Position numbers and translations under genes: made by a program
Shown: positions 5,913-34,924 of the stretch, piece after piece
Layout of the letters: each line of letters opens with the position of its first letter
How positions within the stretch are numbered: position 1 is the stretch's first letter
From: Oscillospiraceae bacterium
GTDB taxonomy: Bacteria; Bacillota; Clostridia; Oscillospirales; Oscillospiraceae
Length of the DNA: 39,603 nt
Direction of reading: 5' to 3'
NCBI GenBank assembly: GCA_017408525.1
Contig: JAFQUN010000067.1
Coordinates: 1-39,603 of the forward strand
The notes under the pieces: generated by a model
Seen by the model: the letters and a program-made list of their open reading frames with translations, nothing else
Told to the model about the DNA's origin: nothing
The model's database searches: none

Positions 5913-7184
5913 ATGTCGTTTACGGACAAATTCGATTCTTTGGAGGAGCGCTTTAATGCGCTTGCACGCGCGGCGTCGGAGACGTCGAGCTGGGATGCGG
6001 AGGAGGTGCGGCGCGAGAGTGACCGCTACGCGCGTTCCCGCAGCCAGCAGGGCGAACGCCGCAGCAGCAAACAGAGCGAGCGGCGCAGTACGCAGGGAGC
6101 GCCGTCGGGCGAGCGCCGGCGCAAGGAACGCGGGAATCCTCTGGGTCGGTTCGCGCTTTGGCTGGTGTGCGTCGTTGTGGTGTCGTTCTTGCTTGCCGAG
6201 GTCGGCTGGCTTTTAATGAACGACCTTTGTGCGTTCAATAAACCGGAGCTCACGGTCACGTTGACGGTTGAAAAGGACGACAGCATTTCAACTGTCGCAA
6301 AGAAGCTCCATGATGAAGGGCTGATCGACTATAAGTGGTTTTTCAAGCTCTATGCAGCCGTTTCCAATGCAGAGGAGAAGATCGGCGAGGGGGAACACAC
6401 GCTTACAAGCGATATGGACTATCACGCGCTGATCAGCAATATGAAAAATTCTTCCGGCGGATCGCTTTCCGCTGAGACGGTGCGTGTGACGATACCGGAG
6501 GGCTACACTGTTGCGCAGACGATCGCACTGCTTGCGGAGAAAAAGGTCAATACTGTCGAGGCTTTGACCGAGGCGGCGGAGAGTTATGCCTTTGATTACG
6601 ACTTCCTCAATGGCGCGGAAAGCGGAGATATTTCACGTCTGGAAGGGTTCTTGTTCCCTGATACCTACGATTTCTATGTTGGAGAGAAGCCGTCGAGCGC
6701 ACTTTCAAAGCTCATGGCAAACTTTGATCTGAAGATGAACGAGGAGCTGCTTGCGGCAGTCAATGAGTCGGGCTATTCACTGCGTGAGATCATCACTGTT
6801 GCATCGTTGATCGAAGAGGAGACGGACGGCACCGACCAAAAGCGCATCGCGTCTGTCATCTATAACCGCATTCAGAATCCATCCGCCGAGACGGTCGGGC
6901 TTTTGTAGATCGACGCGGCACTGATCTACGGTCTTGAGTACGGTGCGGGCGCACAGCTTACCGACGCGGACAAGGAGATCGATACACCCTACAACCTCTA
7001 TTTGCGCAAGGGACTTCCGCCGACGCCGATCAGCAATCCCGGTATGGATGCGATCAAGGCGGCGCTCAATCCCGAGGATACGGGCTATTACTACTACGCG
7101 CTCGGAAAAGACGGACTGCACCACTATTCCAAGACGTACAGCGATCATGTGGCGTTTTTGAACAGCGGCGAGTACGCGGGATAA
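5913..7184 (+). pseudogene. mltG: endolytic murein transglycosylase MltG, interrupted by in-frame TAG at 6906-6908
   Basis: MltG cleaves nascent peptidoglycan strands at the membrane. The product has a charged cytoplasmic N terminus rich in Arg/Ser/Gln (residues 1-78), one transmembrane segment (about 80-101), then the YceG domain. The catalytic Glu lies in SLIEEET (E301 by alignment with the E. coli SIVEKET motif). Codon 332 is TAG; in the family this site is the Gln of the LQxDxxxIYG motif, so one C-to-T change (CAG to TAG) explains it. The frame then continues for 91 residues with full family character (IDAALIYGLEYG, LYLRKGLPPTPISNPGMDAI) to TAA at 7184. As read, the protein ends after the catalytic Glu but lacks the C-terminal part of the active site. 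ATG 5913 is chosen because GGAAGGA precedes it at good spacing; GTG 5904 lies too close. A sequencing error, a true nonsense mutation or amber suppression are all possible. Confidence 0.9.
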
Positions 7185-7240: not shown

Positions 7241-7257
7241 GTTAGGAGCGTTTGAAC

Positions 7258-8484
7258 ATGGAAAAGAAAAAAACGATGCTGCTCGCGCCGGCAGGTGATA
7301 TGGAGCGGCTGAAAATGGCGGTTTTGTATGGCGCGGATGCCGTGTATCTTGCCGGAGAGAGCTTCGGGATGCGCGCATTTGCGGGGAACTTTGCACCCGA
7401 TGAGCTGCGCGAGGCGGTGCGCTTTGCACACGCGCACGGTGTGGAGGTACACACGACGGTGAACACCATGCCGCGAAACGACGAAGTGATGCAGCTTCCC
7501 GCGCACCTTGAAATGCTCGATGCGGCGGGGGTCGATGCGCTGATCCTTGCAGACCTTGGCGCGTTCACGATGGCAAAACGCTATGCGCCGCACTGCAAAA
7601 GGCATGTGAGCACGCAGCAGAGTGTTTCAAACTACGCCTGCGCGGCGGCATGGCATGAGCTCGGCGCGGACTGTGTGGTGCTTGCGCGCGAGCTTTCGCT
7701 GGGCGAGATCCGCACGATACGCGAAAAAACACCACCCTCACTTAAAATCGAAACGTTCTGCCACGGGGCAATGTGCGTTTCGTATTCGGGGCGGTGTCTG
7801 CTTTCGAACTATATGACAGGGCGCGATTCAAACCGCGGCGCATGCGCGCAGCCGTGCCGCTACCAGTACGCGCTGATGGAGGAAAAGCGCCCGGGTGAAT
7901 ATTTTCCTGTGTTTGAGGATGAGATGGGGACATACATCATGAACTCGCGCGATATATGCATGATCGACCACGTTCGTGAGATGATGGACGCGGGGATCGG
8001 CTGCATGAAGATCGAAGGGCGGGCGAAGTCTGCGTACTATGCCGCCATCGTTACGGGCGCGTACCGCCATGCGATCGACGCTGCGGCGGCAGGTGTGCCG
8101 ATCGACCCCGTCTGGCGTGACGAGGTGGAGCATGTGAGCCACCGGCACTACTCAACAGGATTCTATTTCGGCGAGCCGGGGCAGTATTACCAGAATTCGC
8201 GCTACATAAGAGATTGGCAGATCTGCGCGATGGTGCGCGAGTGCGATGCGGACGGAAACGCAGTGCTTACGCTCAACAACAAATTCTCCGCCGGCGATGA
8301 GGTGGAGATCGTCGGACCTGATATGCGCCCGTTTTCAATGCGTGTGGAGGCGCTTTTCGATGCGGACGGCGTGCGCGTGGAGAGTGTGCGTACACCGCAG
8401 ACGACCTTTTCAATGAAGCTGCCGCGCGAGGTGCCGCCGTTTAGTCTTGTGCGTCACGCGGTGGAGCTTTCGGCGCAGGAGTGA
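7258..8484 (+). CDS. peptidase U32 family protein (tRNA/rRNA hydroxylation-type)
   Basis: A 408-residue protein of the U32 family. Well-studied members (TrhP/YegQ and RlhA/YdcP in E. coli) hydroxylate tRNA uridine 34 or 23S rRNA rather than acting as proteases. The N-terminal TIM-barrel-like part starts LLAPAGDMERLKMAVLYGAD. The family signature with its cysteine cluster is at about residues 165-205: ETFCHGAMC, SYSGRCLLS, RDSNRGACAQPCRY; these cysteines are thought to bind an Fe-S cluster. The C-terminal region from about 300 (DWQICAMV...) matches the U32 C-terminal domain. ATG 7258 is chosen because TAGGAG lies 9 nt upstream. Its last 44 nt overlap the end of the convergent EamA gene. Which RNA is modified cannot be told. 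Confidence 0.88.
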   Translation: MEKKKTMLLAPAGDMERLKMAVLYGADAVYLAGESFGMRAFAGNFAPDELREAVRFAHAHGVEVHTTVNTMPRNDEVMQLPAHLEMLDAAGVDALILADLGAFTMAKRYAPHCKRHVSTQQSVSNYACAAAWHELGADCVVLARELSLGEIRTIREKTPPSLKIETFCHGAMCVSYSGRCLLSNYMTGRDSNRGACAQPCRYQYALMEEKRPGEYFPVFEDEMGTYIMNSRDICMIDHVREMMDAGIGCMKIEGRAKSAYYAAIVTGAYRHAIDAAAAGVPIDPVWRDEVEHVSHRHYSTGFYFGEPGQYYQNSRYIRDWQICAMVRECDADGNAVLTLNNKFSAGDEVEIVGPDMRPFSMRVEALFDADGVRVESVRTPQTTFSMKLPREVPPFSLVRHAVELSAQE

Positions 8485-18613: not shown

Positions 18614-18729
18614 ATCCCTGTTCTTGCGCCGTGAGAGGACGCGGCGCGCGGTTTTGCTGCACGGATGAGATGCTTTGTCTGTAATGCGATATCGCTTTAC
18701 ATAGTTTACACAGAGAGGAATGGAACGAC

Positions 18730-20460
18730 ATGGCTGAAGAGGTAAAGGCTGCGATGAGTGAAGAAGCCGCCGAAGCGAAAAATTTTATCCACAATTTTAT
18801 TGAGGAGGATATCGCAAAGGGTGGTCAATTTGAGGGGATGCAGGTCCATACCCGCTTTCCGCCCGAGCCGAACGGCTATTTGCATATCGGTCACTGCAAG
18901 GCGCTGATCATCGATTTTGGCACGGCTGAAAAGTTTGGAGGTATCTGCAACCTGCGTATGGACGACACCAATCCCGCTAAGGAGGATACCGAGTTTGTCG
19001 ACGCCATTCAGGAGGATATCCACTGGCTCGGTTTTGACTGGGGCGACCGCTTTTTCTATGGCAGCGACTATTTTGACAAGACGTATGAGTACGCCATCGA
19101 GCTTATCAAGAAGGGGCTTGCGTATGTGTGCGAGCTTACACCCGAGGAGTTTCGTGCAAACCGCGGCGAGATCGGCGTGAGTGCGACAAGTCCGTACCGT
19201 GACCGCCCGATCGAAGAGAATCTTGACCTTTTTGAGCGCATGGCGGCAGGGGAGTTTCCGGAGGGAAAGTACACGCTGCGTGCGAAGATCGACCTTGCCT
19301 CCGGCAACTTCAATATGCGCGACCCCGTGCTCTACCGTATCCGCCACATTGAGCATCACCGTCAGGGTACGAAATACTGCCTGTTCCCGATGTATGACTT
19401 TGCACACCCCATTCAGGATGCGCTCGAAGGCATCACGCACTCGCTGTGCTCACTCGAGTATGAGGAGCACCGTCCGCTCTATGACTGGGTCGTGAGCAAT
19501 GTTTCGATCCCGTATCACAAGCCGCGCCAGATCGAATTTGCGCGCCTTGGCATCAACTACACCGTTATGTCCAAGCGCAAGCTGCGCCAGCTCGTCGAAA
19601 CGGGACGCGTTTCCGGCTGGGATGATCCGCGTATGCCGACGCTGTGCGGTCTGCGCCGCAGAGGTTATACCGCCGCGTCCATCCGTTCGTTCTGCGAGCG
19701 CATCGGCGTTGCGAAAGCGCCGTCGACCATCGAGTATTCGTTCCTGGAGCATTGCCTGCGCGAAGACCTCAACGCGACCGCCGAGCGCACGATGGCGGTG
19801 CTGCATCCTGTGAAGCTCGTCATTACGAACTACCCCGAGGGCAAGAGCGAAACGTTCGATGTGGAGAACAATCCGACCGACGAGAACGCCGGCACGCACG
19901 AGGTGTCGTTCAGCCGTGAGCTTTGGGTCGAGGCGGACGATTTCATGGAAACGCCTATCCCCAAGTATAAGCGTCTTTATCCTGGAAACGAGGTGCGCCT
20001 TAAAGGTGCGTATCTTGTTACCTGCACCGGCTGCAAGAAGGATGAGGAGGGGAACGTTGTCGAGGTTTACGCCGAGTACGATCCCGAATCGCACGGCGGA
20101 AATCCTGCCGACGGACGCAAGGTAAAGGGCGCGACGATCCACTGGGTCGATGCCGAAACGGCTGTCGATGCAGAGGTGCGCCTGTACGATTATCTTTTCA
20201 GCGATCCCGCGCCCGATGCGGCGGACAAGGACTTCCTGGAGTGCCTGAATCCCGATTCGCTGAGCGTGCTTACCGGCTGCAAGGTCGAAGCGAGAATGAA
20301 GAAGATCGCTGCCGAATATGCGGCAAGCGAGCGCAGCGGACGCACCGCGCCGTCGTATCAGTTCATGCGTCTTGGTTACTTCTGCCTTGACAATAAGGAT
20401 ACGACAGGGGAGAAGATCGTCTTCAACCGCAGCGTTTCGCTCAAAGACAGCTTTAAGTAA
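18730..20460 (+). CDS. glnS: glutaminyl-tRNA synthetase
   Basis: Class I synthetase of 576 residues charging tRNA-Gln directly. The signature FPPEPNGYLHIGHCKA (residues 43-58) carries the HIGH element, and VMSKRKL (about 278) is the KMSKS equivalent typical of GlnRS. LRMDDTNPAKEDTEFV, GWDDPRMPTLCGLRRRGY and the C-terminal anticodon-binding barrels (VEADDFMETPIPKYKRLYPG; TIHWVDAE) are all present. There is a 20-residue N-terminal extension relative to E. coli. Many Firmicutes use the GatCAB route instead, so a GlnRS is informative about the lineage and is thought to trace to horizontal gain. Own promoter and terminator. Confidence 0.96.
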   Translation: MAEEVKAAMSEEAAEAKNFIHNFIEEDIAKGGQFEGMQVHTRFPPEPNGYLHIGHCKALIIDFGTAEKFGGICNLRMDDTNPAKEDTEFVDAIQEDIHWLGFDWGDRFFYGSDYFDKTYEYAIELIKKGLAYVCELTPEEFRANRGEIGVSATSPYRDRPIEENLDLFERMAAGEFPEGKYTLRAKIDLASGNFNMRDPVLYRIRHIEHHRQGTKYCLFPMYDFAHPIQDALEGITHSLCSLEYEEHRPLYDWVVSNVSIPYHKPRQIEFARLGINYTVMSKRKLRQLVETGRVSGWDDPRMPTLCGLRRRGYTAASIRSFCERIGVAKAPSTIEYSFLEHCLREDLNATAERTMAVLHPVKLVITNYPEGKSETFDVENNPTDENAGTHEVSFSRELWVEADDFMETPIPKYKRLYPGNEVRLKGAYLVTCTGCKKDEEGNVVEVYAEYDPESHGGNPADGRKVKGATIHWVDAETAVDAEVRLYDYLFSDPAPDAADKDFLECLNPDSLSVLTGCKVEARMKKIAAEYAASERSGRTAPSYQFMRLGYFCLDNKDTTGEKIVFNRSVSLKDSFK

Positions 20461-22261: not shown

Positions 22262-22356
22262 AAGAATACTATGGAAGCAATCTGCACGAGGTGCTTTTCC
22301 AAAGACCCCGTGGTGACAAGGCAATCCATACATTTCGACTGAAAAGGAGTTTTGAT

Positions 22357-24939
22357 ATGGCAACCTTTGTTGTGAACGGTCAGAACGTGACCGTCGAGCA
22401 AAACCAAAAGCTCATCCGCTATCTGCGTGACGAGATGCACCTTACCTCCGTCAAGGACGGCTGCAGCGAGGGTGCGTGCGGCACCTGCCATGTACTTATC
22501 GACGGTAAGGCGACCAAGGCGTGTGTCGTTTCCACCGACAAGCTGGAAGGAAAGAGCATCATCACCGTTGAGGGTCTTTCCGATTTCGAGAAGGAAGTCT
22601 ATACCTATGCTTTCGGTGAAGCCGGCGCTGTGCAGTGCGGCTTCTGCATCCCGGGCATGATCATCTCCGCGAAGGGTCTTTTGGATGTCAATCCCGACCC
22701 CACGCGCGAGGAGGCGGCGTTTGCTATCCGCAACAACATCTGCCGCTGCACCGGCTATGTCAAGATCATTGACGGTATCCTGCTTGCGGCGAAGATCTTC
22801 CGCGAGGGACGCATTCCCAAGCCTTCGGCAGATGACTGGCAGATCGGCTCGCGTATGCAGCGTCTGGACGTTCCTGAAAAGGTACAGGGCTACGGCAAGT
22901 ATCCCGATGACTGGTACATCGACGGCATGTGCTACGGCAGCGCCGTCCGCAGTGAGCATCCGCGCGCGCGTGTGCTTGCTATCCACACGGAAGAAGCGAA
23001 GGCACTTGAGGGTGTTGTCTGCGTTTTGACGGCAGAGGATATCCCCGGCAAGAACTACGTCGGTCATATCAAGAAGGACCAGCCCACGCTCATCCCTGTC
23101 GGTGAGATCACGCACTATCTCGGTGATGCGATCGCGCTCGTGTGCGCGCGTGACCAGAAGACGCTGGAAGAGGCGAAAAAGCTCGTGCGCGTTGAGTACG
23201 AGGTGCTTCCCGCTGTCCACAATCCCGAAGAGGCCGCTGCACCCAATGCGCCGCTCGTCTTCGAAACGGACAAGGACAATGTGCAGGCGTACAAGCACGT
23301 CTCCCGCGGCAACGCCGAAGAGGCTATCCGAAACGCAAAGCACGTTATTACCCGCAAGTTCCACACCCCCTGGACGGAGCACGCGTTCCTCGAGCCGGAG
23401 TGCTGCGTTGCATACCCGATCGAAAACGGCGGTGTCCGTCTTCTGACCACCGACCAGAGCGCTCACACCACGCTGCACGAGTGCGCGTCGATGCTCGGCG
23501 TTCCGCATGAGCAGTGCGAGGTCGAAAACCAGCTCGTTGGCGGCGGCTTCGGCGGCAAGGAGGATATGTCTGTGCAGCACCACGCAGCGCTCATCGCTTA
23601 TGTCGCGCGCGTGCCGGTGAAGGTCAAGCTCTCCCGTGCGGAATCCATCCTCATCCATCCCAAGCGTCACCCGATGGATATGGAATTTACGATGGGCTGT
23701 GACGAAAACGGTATCATTCAGGGCGTCAAGGCACGCGTTGTGTCCGATACGGGCGCGTTCGCTTCCCTCGGCGGTCCCGTGCTCGAGCGTGCCTGCACCC
23801 ACGCGGCAGGTCCGTATGCCTATGAGAATTTTGAGATCGAGGGCACGGCATATTATACCAACAATCCTCCCGCAGGTGCGTTCCGCGGCTTCGGTGTGAC
23901 GCAGACCTGCTTTGCGACCGAATCGCTTTTGAACGAAATGGCGGACATTGTCGGCATTTCTCCGTGGGAGATCAGATACCGCAACGCCATCCGTCCGGGC
24001 GGCGTGCTGCCCAACGGTCAGATCGTCGATGAGTCCACCGGTCTTGTTGAGACGCTTGAGGCTGTCCGCGAGCAGTACGACGCGGCAGTCGCTGCCGGTA
24101 AGCCGGTCGGCATCGCCTGCGCGATGAAAAACTCCGGCGTCGGCGTTGGTCTTCCCGACTGGGGACGCTGCAAGCTGATCGTCGAGGATGACAAGAAGCT
24201 GCATATCTACACCGGCGCTTCCTGCATCGGTCAGGGTCTTGGCACGGTGCTGGTGCAGATGATCTGCACCAATACGCCGCTGGGGCGCGACGACATCGTG
24301 TACGAGCGTTCCAACACATGGATCGCCCCCGACTCCGGCGATACCTCCGGCTCGCGCCAGACGCTCGTGACGGGTGAGGCCTGCCGCCGCGCCTGCGAGA
24401 AGTTCAACGAAGCCTACGTCGGAAAGACGCTTGCCGATCTTGTCGGTCAGGAGTTCTACGGTGAGTATCTTGCAAAGACCGATCCGCTCGGTGCGGATGT
24501 TCCCAACCCTGTTTCCCACGTTGCATACGGCTACGCCACGCAGGTGTGCATCCTCGACAAGGAATCCGGCCGCGTGGAGAAGATGATCGCCGCGCACGAT
24601 GTCGGCAGGGCTGTCAATCCGCTCAGCTGCGAAGGTCAGATCGAAGGCGGCGTCGTGATGTCGCTCGGCTACGCGCTCACGGAGAAGTATCCCATCGACG
24701 ACAACTGCAAGCCTACCGCAAAGTACGGTATGCTCGGTCTTTTCAAGGCCAACCAGATCCCTGAGATCGAGGCGATCGTTGTCGATAAGCCGGGTCTGAA
24801 CGTTGCCTGCGGTGCCATCGGTATCGGTGAGATCACGTCTATCCCCACCGCGCCCGCGATCGCGGACGCGTACCGCCGTCTTGACGGTGAGCTGCGTACG
24901 GAGCTGCCGCTCAAGAACACGCCTTACGCGAAGAAGTAA
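22357..24939 (+). CDS. fused [2Fe-2S]/molybdopterin hydroxylase, possible selenium-dependent xanthine dehydrogenase
   Basis: An 860-residue xanthine-oxidase-family enzyme with the iron-sulfur and molybdenum domains in one chain. The plant-type ferredoxin cluster uses C36, C41, C44 and C56 (GCSEGACGTC). The second cluster uses C94, C97, C129 and C131 (QCGFCIPG; CRCTGY). Then come the aldehyde oxidase/xanthine dehydrogenase a/b hammerhead (from about 190) and the molybdenum domain with VGGGFGGKED (about 392), PPAGAFRGFGVTQ (about 507) and the catalytic Glu in GIGEITSIPTAPA (about 826). No FAD domain is present. This layout is found in selenium-dependent xanthine dehydrogenases, E. coli XdhD and aldehyde oxidoreductases, so the substrate is uncertain; a purine is likely given mocA and xdhABC nearby. 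ATG 22357 follows AAAGGAG. Codon use is strongly C-ending. Confidence 0.9.
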   Translation: MATFVVNGQNVTVEQNQKLIRYLRDEMHLTSVKDGCSEGACGTCHVLIDGKATKACVVSTDKLEGKSIITVEGLSDFEKEVYTYAFGEAGAVQCGFCIPGMIISAKGLLDVNPDPTREEAAFAIRNNICRCTGYVKIIDGILLAAKIFREGRIPKPSADDWQIGSRMQRLDVPEKVQGYGKYPDDWYIDGMCYGSAVRSEHPRARVLAIHTEEAKALEGVVCVLTAEDIPGKNYVGHIKKDQPTLIPVGEITHYLGDAIALVCARDQKTLEEAKKLVRVEYEVLPAVHNPEEAAAPNAPLVFETDKDNVQAYKHVSRGNAEEAIRNAKHVITRKFHTPWTEHAFLEPECCVAYPIENGGVRLLTTDQSAHTTLHECASMLGVPHEQCEVENQLVGGGFGGKEDMSVQHHAALIAYVARVPVKVKLSRAESILIHPKRHPMDMEFTMGCDENGIIQGVKARVVSDTGAFASLGGPVLERACTHAAGPYAYENFEIEGTAYYTNNPPAGAFRGFGVTQTCFATESLLNEMADIVGISPWEIRYRNAIRPGGVLPNGQIVDESTGLVETLEAVREQYDAAVAAGKPVGIACAMKNSGVGVGLPDWGRCKLIVEDDKKLHIYTGASCIGQGLGTVLVQMICTNTPLGRDDIVYERSNTWIAPDSGDTSGSRQTLVTGEACRRACEKFNEAYVGKTLADLVGQEFYGEYLAKTDPLGADVPNPVSHVAYGYATQVCILDKESGRVEKMIAAHDVGRAVNPLSCEGQIEGGVVMSLGYALTEKYPIDDNCKPTAKYGMLGLFKANQIPEIEAIVVDKPGLNVACGAIGIGEITSIPTAPAIADAYRRLDGELRTELPLKNTPYAKK

Positions 24940-27030: not shown

Positions 27031-27110
27031 ACTAAATGAGTTACAGGCGGAAGTCCGCACGAGTGCCGTGCGCGGCTCGTCCGCATTGTTGAAACAGGAG
27101 GTTGGTACAT

Positions 27111-29423
27111 ATGTCAAACGTTGGCAAGAGCGTGGCGCGTGTCGATGCGTTCGACAAAGCAACGGGCCGCGCCAGATACACGGATGACCGCTGCGACAAG
27201 GGCGCGCTGATCGCCCGTGTGGTCCATTCCACCGTGGCACACGGTGTCGTTAAGAGCATCGACATCGAGGCTGCGTCCAAGGTTCCCGGCGTCGTCAAGA
27301 TCGTGACGTGCTTTGATGTGCCGGACATCAAGTTCCCCACCGCAGGACACCCCTGGTCGACCGATCCTCATCATCAGGACGTTGCCGACCGTCTCCTTTT
27401 GACTTCGCACGTCCGTTTCTACGGTGACGATGTCGCCGCCGTCGTCGCGGAAAACGAGGTCGCCGCCGCGCAGGCCGCGCGCCTTATCAAGATCGAGTAT
27501 GAGGAGCTTCCCTTTGTTCTCGACGTGCAGAAGGCGATGGAGGACGGCGCGCCGCAGCTTCACGAGAAGTTTAAGAACAATATCCTCAACCACACCACCA
27601 TCCGCAACGGCGATTATGAGTCCGCGCGGAAGGAAGAGGGTCTTATCTGCGTGGAGGGTTGGTATGATACCCCCACCGTGCAGCACTGCCACATCGAAAA
27701 CCACATCTGCTACGCATACGAAGAAAACGGACAGGTCGTCGTCGTTTCTTCCACCCAGATCCCGCACATCACCCGCCGCATCTGCGGTCAGGCGCTGGGG
27801 ATTCCCTGGGGCAAGGTGCGTCTTGTCAAGCCCTACATCGGCGGTGGCTTCGGCAACAAGCAGGACGCTTTGTATGAGCCGCTTTGTGCCTACCTTACCA
27901 CGCAGGTCGGCGGTCGTCTCGTCAAGCTCGACGTTCCCCGTGAGGATACGTTCGTGAGCAACCGCGTCCGCCACGCCATCCGCACCCACATTATCTCCTA
28001 TATGCGTCCTGACGGCACGTTCGTCGCGCGCAAGATCGAGTGCTTCTCCGATCAGGGTGCCTACGCTTCCCACGGTCACGGCATCGTTGCCAAGGGCATG
28101 GGCGCGTTCCCGCAGCAGTATCCCTGCCCCAACGTTGAGGGCGACGCATATACCGTCTTCACCAACAAGTCCGTTGCCGGCGCGATGCGCGGCTACGGTA
28201 TCCCGCAGGCTATGTGGGCGGGTGAGTGCCATATCGACGACTGCGCCCGTGCGCTCGGCGTCGATCCGCTGGAGTTCCGCTTCAAGAACATCATGAAGAA
28301 GGGCTACCGCGACGGCTTCTCCAAGAACGAGCTGTATGACGACTCGTATGTTCAGTGCCTTGAAAAGGGCAAGGCGTACCTCGACTATGACCGCAAGGTC
28401 GCTGAGTACGCAAAGCAGACCGGTCCTGTCCGCCGTGGTATCGGTGTTGCCGCGTTCTGGTACAACACCGCCGTTTGGCCCATTTCGCTCGAGACTTCCT
28501 CCTGCCGCATGATCCTCAACCAGGACGGCAGCGTGCAGGTGCAGGTCGGTGAGACGGAAATCGGTCAGGGCGCCGACACTGCCTACGCGCAGATGACTGC
28601 TGACGTCATCGGTCTTGCCGATTATAAGGACGTCCACGTTGTTTCCTGCCAGGATACCGACGTTACGCCGTTTGGTACGGGTGCTTACGCTTCCCGCCAG
28701 ACGTACACCGCCGGCTTCTCCATCCGTCAGACGGGTCTTCTGCTTAAAGAGCGTATCTTGAAGTACGCTTGCGAGCTGACGCGTCAGGCAGTCTACAACC
28801 TCGATATCGAAGAGGGCAACATCGTCCGCACGACCGACGGTCGTGTTCTGATGAGCCTTGGCGAGCTTGCCACCGAAGCGCTTTACAGCCTTACGCACAG
28901 TGAGCATCTTTCCGCCGAGAGCACCTACCAGATCAAAAACAACGCCTATTCCTTCGGCTGCACCTTTGCCGAGGTCGAGGTCGATATCCCCATGTGCAAG
29001 GTCAAAGTCCTCGACATTATCAATGTCCACGACTGCGGCAAGCTCATCAACCCCGCTCTTGCCGAAGCGCAGGTCCACGGCGGTATGTCCATGGCGATCG
29101 GCTACGGCGTGAGCGAGCAGCTCCTCTTCGACGAGAAGACGGGCAAGCCCCTCAACAACAACCTGCTTGACTACAAGCTTTCGACCTTTATGGATCACCC
29201 GCACCTGGAAGCGCAGTTCGTCGAAAACTACGAGCCGACCTCCGCGTTCGGCACGAAGGCGCTCGGCGAGCCGCCCGCCTGCTCCGGCGCACCGGCGATC
29301 CGCAATGCGGTCTTCAACGCAACGGGCGTTGGCGTCAACCGTGCGCCTATGACCCCGCACGTTCTGTTCGACCGGTTCAGCGAGGAAGGTCTGATCCGTG
29401 ATTTCTGGAGAGAGGAGAAGTAA
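27111..29423 (+). CDS. xdhA: xanthine dehydrogenase, molybdenum-binding subunit
   Basis: A 770-residue catalytic subunit, close in length and sequence to E. coli XdhA. Shared segments include VGKSVARVDAFDKATGRARY at the N terminus, TPTVQHCHIENH, VVVVSSTQIPHITRRICGQA, KPYIGGGFGNKQD (about 242), AGAMRGYGIPQ (about 361), VGETEIGQGADT, INVHDCGKLINPALAEAQVH and the catalytic Glu in GEPPACSGAPAIRNAV (about 725). It oxidises hypoxanthine/xanthine at the molybdenum site and passes electrons to the XdhC clusters and XdhB flavin. ATG 27111 follows AGGAGG. First gene of xdhABC; 6 nt separate it from xdhB. Confidence 0.95.
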   Translation: MSNVGKSVARVDAFDKATGRARYTDDRCDKGALIARVVHSTVAHGVVKSIDIEAASKVPGVVKIVTCFDVPDIKFPTAGHPWSTDPHHQDVADRLLLTSHVRFYGDDVAAVVAENEVAAAQAARLIKIEYEELPFVLDVQKAMEDGAPQLHEKFKNNILNHTTIRNGDYESARKEEGLICVEGWYDTPTVQHCHIENHICYAYEENGQVVVVSSTQIPHITRRICGQALGIPWGKVRLVKPYIGGGFGNKQDALYEPLCAYLTTQVGGRLVKLDVPREDTFVSNRVRHAIRTHIISYMRPDGTFVARKIECFSDQGAYASHGHGIVAKGMGAFPQQYPCPNVEGDAYTVFTNKSVAGAMRGYGIPQAMWAGECHIDDCARALGVDPLEFRFKNIMKKGYRDGFSKNELYDDSYVQCLEKGKAYLDYDRKVAEYAKQTGPVRRGIGVAAFWYNTAVWPISLETSSCRMILNQDGSVQVQVGETEIGQGADTAYAQMTADVIGLADYKDVHVVSCQDTDVTPFGTGAYASRQTYTAGFSIRQTGLLLKERILKYACELTRQAVYNLDIEEGNIVRTTDGRVLMSLGELATEALYSLTHSEHLSAESTYQIKNNAYSFGCTFAEVEVDIPMCKVKVLDIINVHDCGKLINPALAEAQVHGGMSMAIGYGVSEQLLFDEKTGKPLNNNLLDYKLSTFMDHPHLEAQFVENYEPTSAFGTKALGEPPACSGAPAIRNAVFNATGVGVNRAPMTPHVLFDRFSEEGLIRDFWREEK

Positions 29424-32596: not shown

Positions 32597-32850
32597 CCTC
32601 TTTTCGTTTTCGATAGTCTCTGCTGTGGGGAGCATTCCGCGCCGTAAGCGCGAAGCGCACCCTTTGCAAAGAAATTGTGGACAAGGAAGCTGAAGTGGAA
32701 GGGGATAGGGAACGCTTGCTTTGCCTTGTTCATCTTTTAACAGGATGAAGCTATTCCTGCAAAAATGCGAAATATGTCGGTTAATGTCACAAAACTTACT
32801 GGTTAAATTTAGATAAAACGCCGAATCGGAAAGGGAAATGCTTGTTTCTC
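32597..32850. other. intergenic region between divergent spoIVA and bcd
   Basis: No gene seen. GGTTAA occurs twice in direct orientation (about 32779 and 32801) near TTAATGTCACAAAAC. A redox-responsive Rex-type site would be expected before bcd in Clostridia, but no good palindromic match is visible. Confidence 0.35.
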
Positions 32851-32878
32851 TTGCTTATTTATCGTCAGGTGCTATAAT
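32851..32878 (+). promoter_or_regulatory. extended -10 promoter of bcd-etfB-etfA
   Basis: -35 TTGCTT (32851-32856), 16-nt spacer, perfect -10 TATAAT (32873-32878) preceded by TGC. Confidence 0.85.
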
Positions 32879-32960
32879 AATGTCATGCATTCTGAGAAAC
32901 GTTTGTGAAAAATTCGACGATCAAGCGAGTGCGTCAAATATTATGAAGGAGAAGACAAGT

Positions 32961-34103
32961 ATGGATTTTCATCTGTCAAAAGAGCAGGAACTTGCGCGTA
33001 AAATGTTCCGCGAATTTGCCGAGACGGAAGTGAAGCCCCTTGCCGAGGAGATCGACGAGGAAGAGCGCTTCCCGATGGAGACCGTGGAAAAGATGGGCAA
33101 GCTCGGTATGATGGGCATTTATTTCCCCAAGCAGTACGGCGGCGCCGGCGGCGATGTTCTCACCTATGCGATCTGCGTTGAAGAACTTGCCAAGGTTTGC
33201 GGTACGACGGCTGTTATCGTTTCGGCACATACCTCTTTGTGCTGCGCCCCCATTTTTGAAAACGGTACGGAGGAGCAGAAGATGAAGTATCTGCCCGACC
33301 TCCTTTCCGGCCGCAAGATCGGTGCGTTCGGTCTGACCGAACCCAATGCCGGTACGGACGCTTCCGGTCAGCAGACCAGCGCCGTTCGCGAGGGTGACCA
33401 CTATGTACTTAACGGTTCGAAGTGCTTTATCACCAACGGCACTGTCGCCGAAACGTTCGTTGTTTTCGCAATGACCGATAAGTCCAAGGGCAACAAGGGC
33501 ATTTCCGCATTTATCGTTGAAAAGTCCTTCCCCGGCTTCTCCTGCGGTAAGCACGAGAAGAAGATGGGTATCCGCGGCAGCTCCACCTGCGACCTGATCT
33601 TTGAAGACTGCATCGTTCCGGCTGAGAACCTGCTCGGCAAGGAAGGCGACGGCTTCAAGATCGCGATGCGCACGCTCGACGGCGGCCGTATCGGTATCGC
33701 TTCCCAGGCCCTTGGCCTTGGCGAAGGCGCGATCAACGAGGCTGTCAAGTACACCAAAGAGCGCATCCAGTTCAAAAAGCGCCTCTCCCAGTTCCAGAAC
33801 ACCCAGTTCCAGCTTGCCGATATGCACACCCGTATGCAGGCTGCGCAGTATCTTGTCTACGCCGCTGCTACAAAGAAGCAGAACCACGAGGATTACTCGA
33901 TGGATGCTGCGATGGCGAAGCTGTACGCGGCAGAGTCCGCCTCCGATGTTACCCGCCGCGCTGTTCAGCTGTTCGGCGGCTACGGCTACACCCGCGAATA
34001 TCCGGTCGAGCGCATGATGCGCGACGCCAAGATCACTGAGATCTACGAAGGCACTTCCGAGGTCCAGCGCATGGTCATCTCGAAGTACCTGGGCGTGAAT
34101 TGA
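32961..34103 (+). CDS. bcd: acyl-CoA dehydrogenase, probably butyryl-CoA dehydrogenase
   Basis: A 380-residue flavoenzyme of the acyl-CoA dehydrogenase family. With the adjacent EtfBA it most likely reduces crotonyl-CoA to butyryl-CoA while bifurcating electrons to ferredoxin. Landmarks: MDFHLSKEQELARKMFREFA, FGLTEPNAGTDASGQQT (FAD contacts, about 126-142), GIRGSSTCDLIFEDC, and the catalytic Glu in ITEIYEGTSEVQRMVISKYL (about 359-378). ATG 32961 has AAGGAGAAG upstream; a longer frame to 32838 crosses the promoter. No thl, crt or hbd gene is in the window, so the butanoate assignment rests on the etf linkage. Confidence 0.93.
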   Translation: MDFHLSKEQELARKMFREFAETEVKPLAEEIDEEERFPMETVEKMGKLGMMGIYFPKQYGGAGGDVLTYAICVEELAKVCGTTAVIVSAHTSLCCAPIFENGTEEQKMKYLPDLLSGRKIGAFGLTEPNAGTDASGQQTSAVREGDHYVLNGSKCFITNGTVAETFVVFAMTDKSKGNKGISAFIVEKSFPGFSCGKHEKKMGIRGSSTCDLIFEDCIVPAENLLGKEGDGFKIAMRTLDGGRIGIASQALGLGEGAINEAVKYTKERIQFKKRLSQFQNTQFQLADMHTRMQAAQYLVYAAATKKQNHEDYSMDAAMAKLYAAESASDVTRRAVQLFGGYGYTREYPVERMMRDAKITEIYEGTSEVQRMVISKYLGVN

Positions 34104-34123
34104 GATAGGGAGGTAAATAAGAC

Positions 34124-34924
34124 ATGAAGATCATCGTTACCGTTAAGCAGGTTCCCGATACCTCCGGTAAGGTCGCGGTCAATCCCGACGGCACGCTCAA
34201 CCGCGCCTCGATGCAGACCATTACCAACCCCGACGACATGAACGCCGTCGAAGCTGCCCTCAAGCTCAAGGATGAGACCGGCTGCAAGGTCGTCGCTGTC
34301 ACGATGGGTCCCCCGCCGGCAGAGGGTATGCTGCGTGAGCTGATGGCCATGGGCGTTGATGAGAGTTATCTCGTCTCCGCGCGTGAGTTCGGCGGCTCTG
34401 ACACCTTTGCAACGAGCCAGATCCTCGCTGCTGCGATCGACACCATCGGTCTTGAAGAGGGCGACCTCCTCTTCGCAGGCCGCCAGGCGATCGACGGCGA
34501 TACGGCACAGGTCGGTCCGCAGATCGGCGAAAAGCTGAACCTGCCCCAGATCACCTATGCTGCCGACATCCAGAAGGAAGGCAATACCGTCACCGTCAAG
34601 CGTATGCTCGAAGACGGCTATATGACCATCCGCGTCAAGACCCCCTGCCTTGTCACCTGCATCAAAGAGCTCAATACTCCGCGCTACATGAGCGTCAATG
34701 GTGTGTTTGAAGCGTACAGCAAGCCCATGACCGTCCTCGGCTTTGAGCAGCTCAAAGATCATCCCCTCATCGAGGTGGATACCATCGGTTTGAAGGGCTC
34801 GCCCACGAACATCTTCAAGTCCTTCACCCCGCCGCAGAAGGGCGTGGGCATGATGCTTGAAGGCGCCGACAAGGATACCTGCGAAAAGCTCGCCGGTCTT
34901 CTCGCCGCGAAACACATCATTTGA
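34124..34924 (+). CDS. etfB: electron transfer flavoprotein subunit beta
   Basis: A 266-residue EtfB of the type found in bifurcating Bcd-Etf complexes. Starts MKIIVTVKQVPDTSGKVAV; VVAVTMGPPPAEGMLRELMA and the adenine-nucleotide/FAD loop LLFAGRQAIDGDTAQVGPQ (about 108-126) are typical. In bifurcating Etf proteins this subunit carries the FAD where NADH electrons split. GGGAGG precedes the ATG; 20 nt lie between it and bcd. Confidence 0.95.
   Translation: MKIIVTVKQVPDTSGKVAVNPDGTLNRASMQTITNPDDMNAVEAALKLKDETGCKVVAVTMGPPPAEGMLRELMAMGVDESYLVSAREFGGSDTFATSQILAAAIDTIGLEEGDLLFAGRQAIDGDTAQVGPQIGEKLNLPQITYAADIQKEGNTVTVKRMLEDGYMTIRVKTPCLVTCIKELNTPRYMSVNGVFEAYSKPMTVLGFEQLKDHPLIEVDTIGLKGSPTNIFKSFTPPQKGVGMMLEGADKDTCEKLAGLLAAKHII

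Follow-up and report, generated by a model that had tools for sequence, protein, structure and literature searches.

The mltG frame and its amber codon

The window analysed here is a complete contig of 39,603 nucleotides, contig C17 of a draft assembly in 147 contigs from an uncultured gut-type bacterium of the Oscillospiraceae (1.64 Mb, 78.3% complete, 3.06% contaminated). Its features relevant to this analysis are the following.

5913-7184, + strand: stop-interrupted mltG frame, ATG at 5913 and TAA at 7182-7184
5913..6908, + strand: 5' part of mltG, 331 codons plus TAG, with the cytoplasmic N-terminus, the membrane segment and the first part of the YceG/MltG domain, including ASLIEEE
6905..6929, + strand: inverted repeat GTAGATC / GATCTAC with 7-bp arms, the TAG lying in the left arm (not significant)
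6906-6908, + strand: premature amber TAG, codon 332, at a position where 80% of relatives have Gln
6909..7184, + strand: 3' part of mltG, 91 codons plus TAA, conserved residues intact, a start codon of its own near the 5' end likely absent
7252..8484, + strand: intact peptidase U32 gene, downstream of mltG
18730-20460: glnS, within the window

A previous sequence-only reading of this DNA had described an mltG gene broken by a lone TAG, and its coordinates and description proved exact when we re-read the sequence: the frame is interrupted only at codon 332 and then stays open for 91 codons. With the TAG taken as Gln, the product scores 253.2 bits against the YceG/MltG profile PF02618 (profile positions 1-271 of 275), well above the curated cut-off of 32.4, and a search of the genome with stops read through returned mltG at 250.5 bits. 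The near-full profile match on readthrough and the retained conserved residues liken the gene to MltG/YceG-like endolytic transglycosylases, from which it differs in the one TAG that breaks the frame across the domain and that is absent from the relatives' genes listed. As the assembly holds no other copy of mltG, redundancy through a second copy was rejected.

In the Oscillibacter contig L091 (JAFQRI010000010.1), mltG is likewise followed by a U32-like frame. This contig begins two bases before the homologue of codon 333 (positions 1-8), so that its residue at codon 332 is not fully readable; the two bases left, AC, are not compatible with CAG. We treated the start of L091 at the homologous site as a coincidence of contig ends. 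Elsewhere in the window, a selenium-dependent xanthine dehydrogenase and a separate XdhA molybdenum-binding subunit lie close together (22291-24939 and 27102-29423). Matches to the acryloyl-CoA reductase AcrC (below cut-off) and to the electron transfer subunit AcrB (above cut-off) at 32838-34924 suggest a putative acrylate-pathway or related acyl-CoA reductase cluster.

Conservation at and beyond the stop

The closest identifiable relatives by MltG are Oscillospiraceae and Oscillibacter-like genomes, at 52-61% protein identity. Relatives nearer than about 55-60% protein identity were not found, nor was any conspecific sequence, and the genome is the sole representative of its genus in the comparison set. 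The expectation that homologues carry Gln at the site of the TAG was borne out in 71 of 89 aligned loci (63 CAG, 8 CAA), the others having Asn (6), Glu (6), Gly (2), Cys (1), Arg (1) or a gap (2). After de-duplication to 70 distinct sequences, Gln still made up 80% of the column, which is well conserved but not invariant. The TAG is one transition away from CAG, the commonest codon of the relatives at this position.

Conserved residues are equally intact on both sides of the stop. At columns conserved to at least 85%, the gene matches 45 of 47 upstream and 26 of 27 downstream, within the spread of intact relatives, and we found no measurable decay 3' of the stop. This agrees with the sequence-only reading, in which the 91 codons after the stop were said to keep full family character and decay to be recent or absent. 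It also means that the change either arose very recently or is not real, although with relatives this distant the lack of decay would place a real change as recent on that scale only.

Among the matches listed, the relatives' mltG genes have no stop in the aligned domain. Two order-level relatives, G243 and G208, had been candidates for stops inside mltG and were both rejected: in G243 the stops fall in a poorly aligned N-terminal extension, and the aligned domain of G208 has none. The comparison with relatives that the sequence-only reading had proposed thus returned a site where Gln is common and a stop that no listed relative shares.

The conservation of both halves would fit a gene that the stop has split into two cooperating polypeptides. 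However, the first in-frame start-type codon past the stop, an internal TTG, comes about 31 codons further on, within a conserved region, and no split mltG was seen in relatives; we consider a split gene the least credible of the explanations weighed here.

We also inspected the sequence around the stop. The change to TAG makes the inverted repeat at 6905-6929 perfect, and the usual sense codon of the relatives would break one of its pairs. The same change would give an arm of at least 7 at 55 of 1549 CAG codons (3.6%), so a templated (quasi-palindrome) mutation was not significant. Downstream of the stop, the fold energy of the RNA equals that of shuffled sequence (z -0.05), and a readthrough-stimulating structure was rejected for want of excess stability.

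Decoding of TAG in the genome

The sequence-only reading had offered a sequencing error, a new nonsense mutation and decoding of TAG as Gln by a suppressor tRNA as its three options. The first two together hold almost all of the probability, while the third was not supported. In the third, TAG would be read as Gln at codon 332, at a low or high level, through a CUA suppressor tRNA (for example from a prophage) or through readthrough by a near-cognate Gln-tRNA, giving full-length MltG. Gln is indeed the commonest residue of the column, and UAG-to-Gln suppressor tRNAs are described for gut phages (PMC10879173). That replaced codon, encoding Gln in relatives, is the sole likeness to the phage system. 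Here, one codon in one gene is concerned instead of many, no CUA tRNA was found, and release factor 1, whose loss would be expected of a genome recoded to TAG as Gln, is present: prfA is intact, at 523.9 bits and with no internal stop.

The genome search for a suppressor tRNA covered all 31 typed tRNA genes of the assembly, without a single CUA anticodon among them; scanning the stretches sampled from the assembly (main set 561 kb) gave no CUA tRNA either. A pattern search of viral contigs found nothing. The two Gln tRNAs have the standard anticodons UUG and CUG. The assembly lacks roughly a fifth of the genome, and its tRNA set has visible gaps, with no Glu, Asn, Phe, Trp or Ile species among the 31 genes; the failure to find a CUA tRNA is thus no proof that none exists, and this incompleteness counts in favour of Gln decoding. 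The presence of glnS in the window was correctly reported and had been taken to provide a synthetase for an amber suppressor. It carries no weight in this respect, because charging of the two normal Gln tRNAs already requires this ordinary housekeeping gene. Pyrrolysine decoding of UAG was rejected, as the only match to pyrrolysyl-tRNA synthetase (PylS) reached 19 bits against a cut-off of 178 bits, and most control genomes also give sub-threshold matches. A tRNA-Sec gene (anticodon TCA) is present in the same genome, G000, on contig C86 at 18644-18734 (G000:C86:18644-18734); given this tRNA, in-frame TGA codons elsewhere in the genome may encode selenocysteine.

TAG serves as a normal stop codon in this genome. 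It terminates 7 of 76 genes near the ends of their relatives in a homology-based set, and 17 of the 178 ORFs called in 295 kb, from a set that takes in mltG itself and a small number of doubtful ORFs. Past the TAG-ended ORFs the mean score was -0.30, which is non-coding, versus +0.19 within genes.

To search for further in-frame stops, we aligned two sets of proteins to the sampled genome, one taken from contigs sampled in two relatives and the other from mltG neighbourhoods. The mltG stop itself was recovered with 22 references; it drops out under a later filter, because it was outscored by a U32 frame that enters mltG in a different phase. Across about 34,000 conserved codons, no second in-frame stop with well-conserved flanks was present in a true frame. 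Other candidates were rejected, as they fell in shadow frames or in 5' extensions whose flanks matched poorly. Where a recoded genome should have many in-frame TAG codons at conserved Gln columns, that of mltG stands alone in this sample, pointing to one event in one gene and not to a code. Intact RF1, the use of TAG as a stop and the lack of further conserved in-frame TAG codons led us to reject genome-wide recoding. According to a published screen of more than 250,000 genomes, the bacterial reassignments known at the time of writing all involve UGA; the screen attributes similar isolated in-frame stops in yeasts to pseudogenes, most often arising through single transitions (PMC8629427).

Together with the chance-level downstream structure and the lack of any relative sharing the stop, these results make Gln decoding at codon 332 very improbable. 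We give marginally less credence still to the specific case of a standard-code bacterium with RF1 that decodes a single mltG amber as Gln, whether by programmed readthrough or by a suppressor tRNA missing from the assembly, and thereby produces some full-length cell-wall transglycosylase.

A probable recent nonsense change or base error

For the lone stop in mltG, an ordinary mutation of recent date and an erroneous base in the assembly are the most likely origins. Without a relative nearer than about 55-60% identity, a real event is inseparable from such an error. Of the two, we lean towards a real recent nonsense change under the standard code, with loss of function, and infer that the base is real in the population. 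A single base change would have turned codon 332 into an amber stop in a bacterium with the standard code, and RF1 would end translation there. The resulting product of 331 residues would lack the last quarter of MltG, including the GLPP...NPG segment, and would probably be inactive. By analogy with E. coli MltG, we take the catalytic Glu to lie in the ASLIEEE segment, upstream of the stop. On this reading, mltG would be a very recent nonsense pseudogene or a loss-of-function allele, and the otherwise intact frame with 26 of 27 downstream columns kept is what a change too recent for decay should leave.

Loss of mltG could be tolerated because the gene is dispensable in several bacteria; its deletion mutants have been examined in Streptococcus mutans and S. 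suis (PMC9941400, PMC10269899). In the family, 7 of the 129 genomes with a completeness of 90% or more and a contamination of 5% or less lack a match to mltG, which suggests that the gene may occasionally be lost. Against a real loss, mltG was found in 187 of 200 family genomes, so that loss is uncommon, and the conserved sample contains no other nonsense pseudogene.

The same observations bear on the less probable but serious alternative that the T at 6906 reflects an error in the consensus of a metagenome assembly or comes from a minority strain in it, and that the cell has a normal full-length mltG. The draft state of the assembly, with its many contigs, partial completeness and some contamination, would allow for this, as would a gene near-universal in the family, whose flanks are under normal conservation and whose stop is the sole one of its kind in the conserved sample. 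The site moreover lies in the inverted repeat that the change perfects, a place where copying artefacts can arise, although this repeat is not significant. However, the surrounding assembly looks clean: in the conserved sample no further in-frame stop of the conserved kind was seen, and the single frameshift-like pair lies at a contig end.

In its single-base stop, intact remainder, standard code and RF1, the locus resembles ordinary nonsense alleles and young bacterial pseudogenes, with the difference that the base here is known from the assembly consensus. Broader importance would follow only if codon 332 were translated, of which the genome shows no sign. If the stop is an error, it matters for annotation only; if it is real, it adds a further young case of cell-wall enzyme loss, here in an uncultured lineage.
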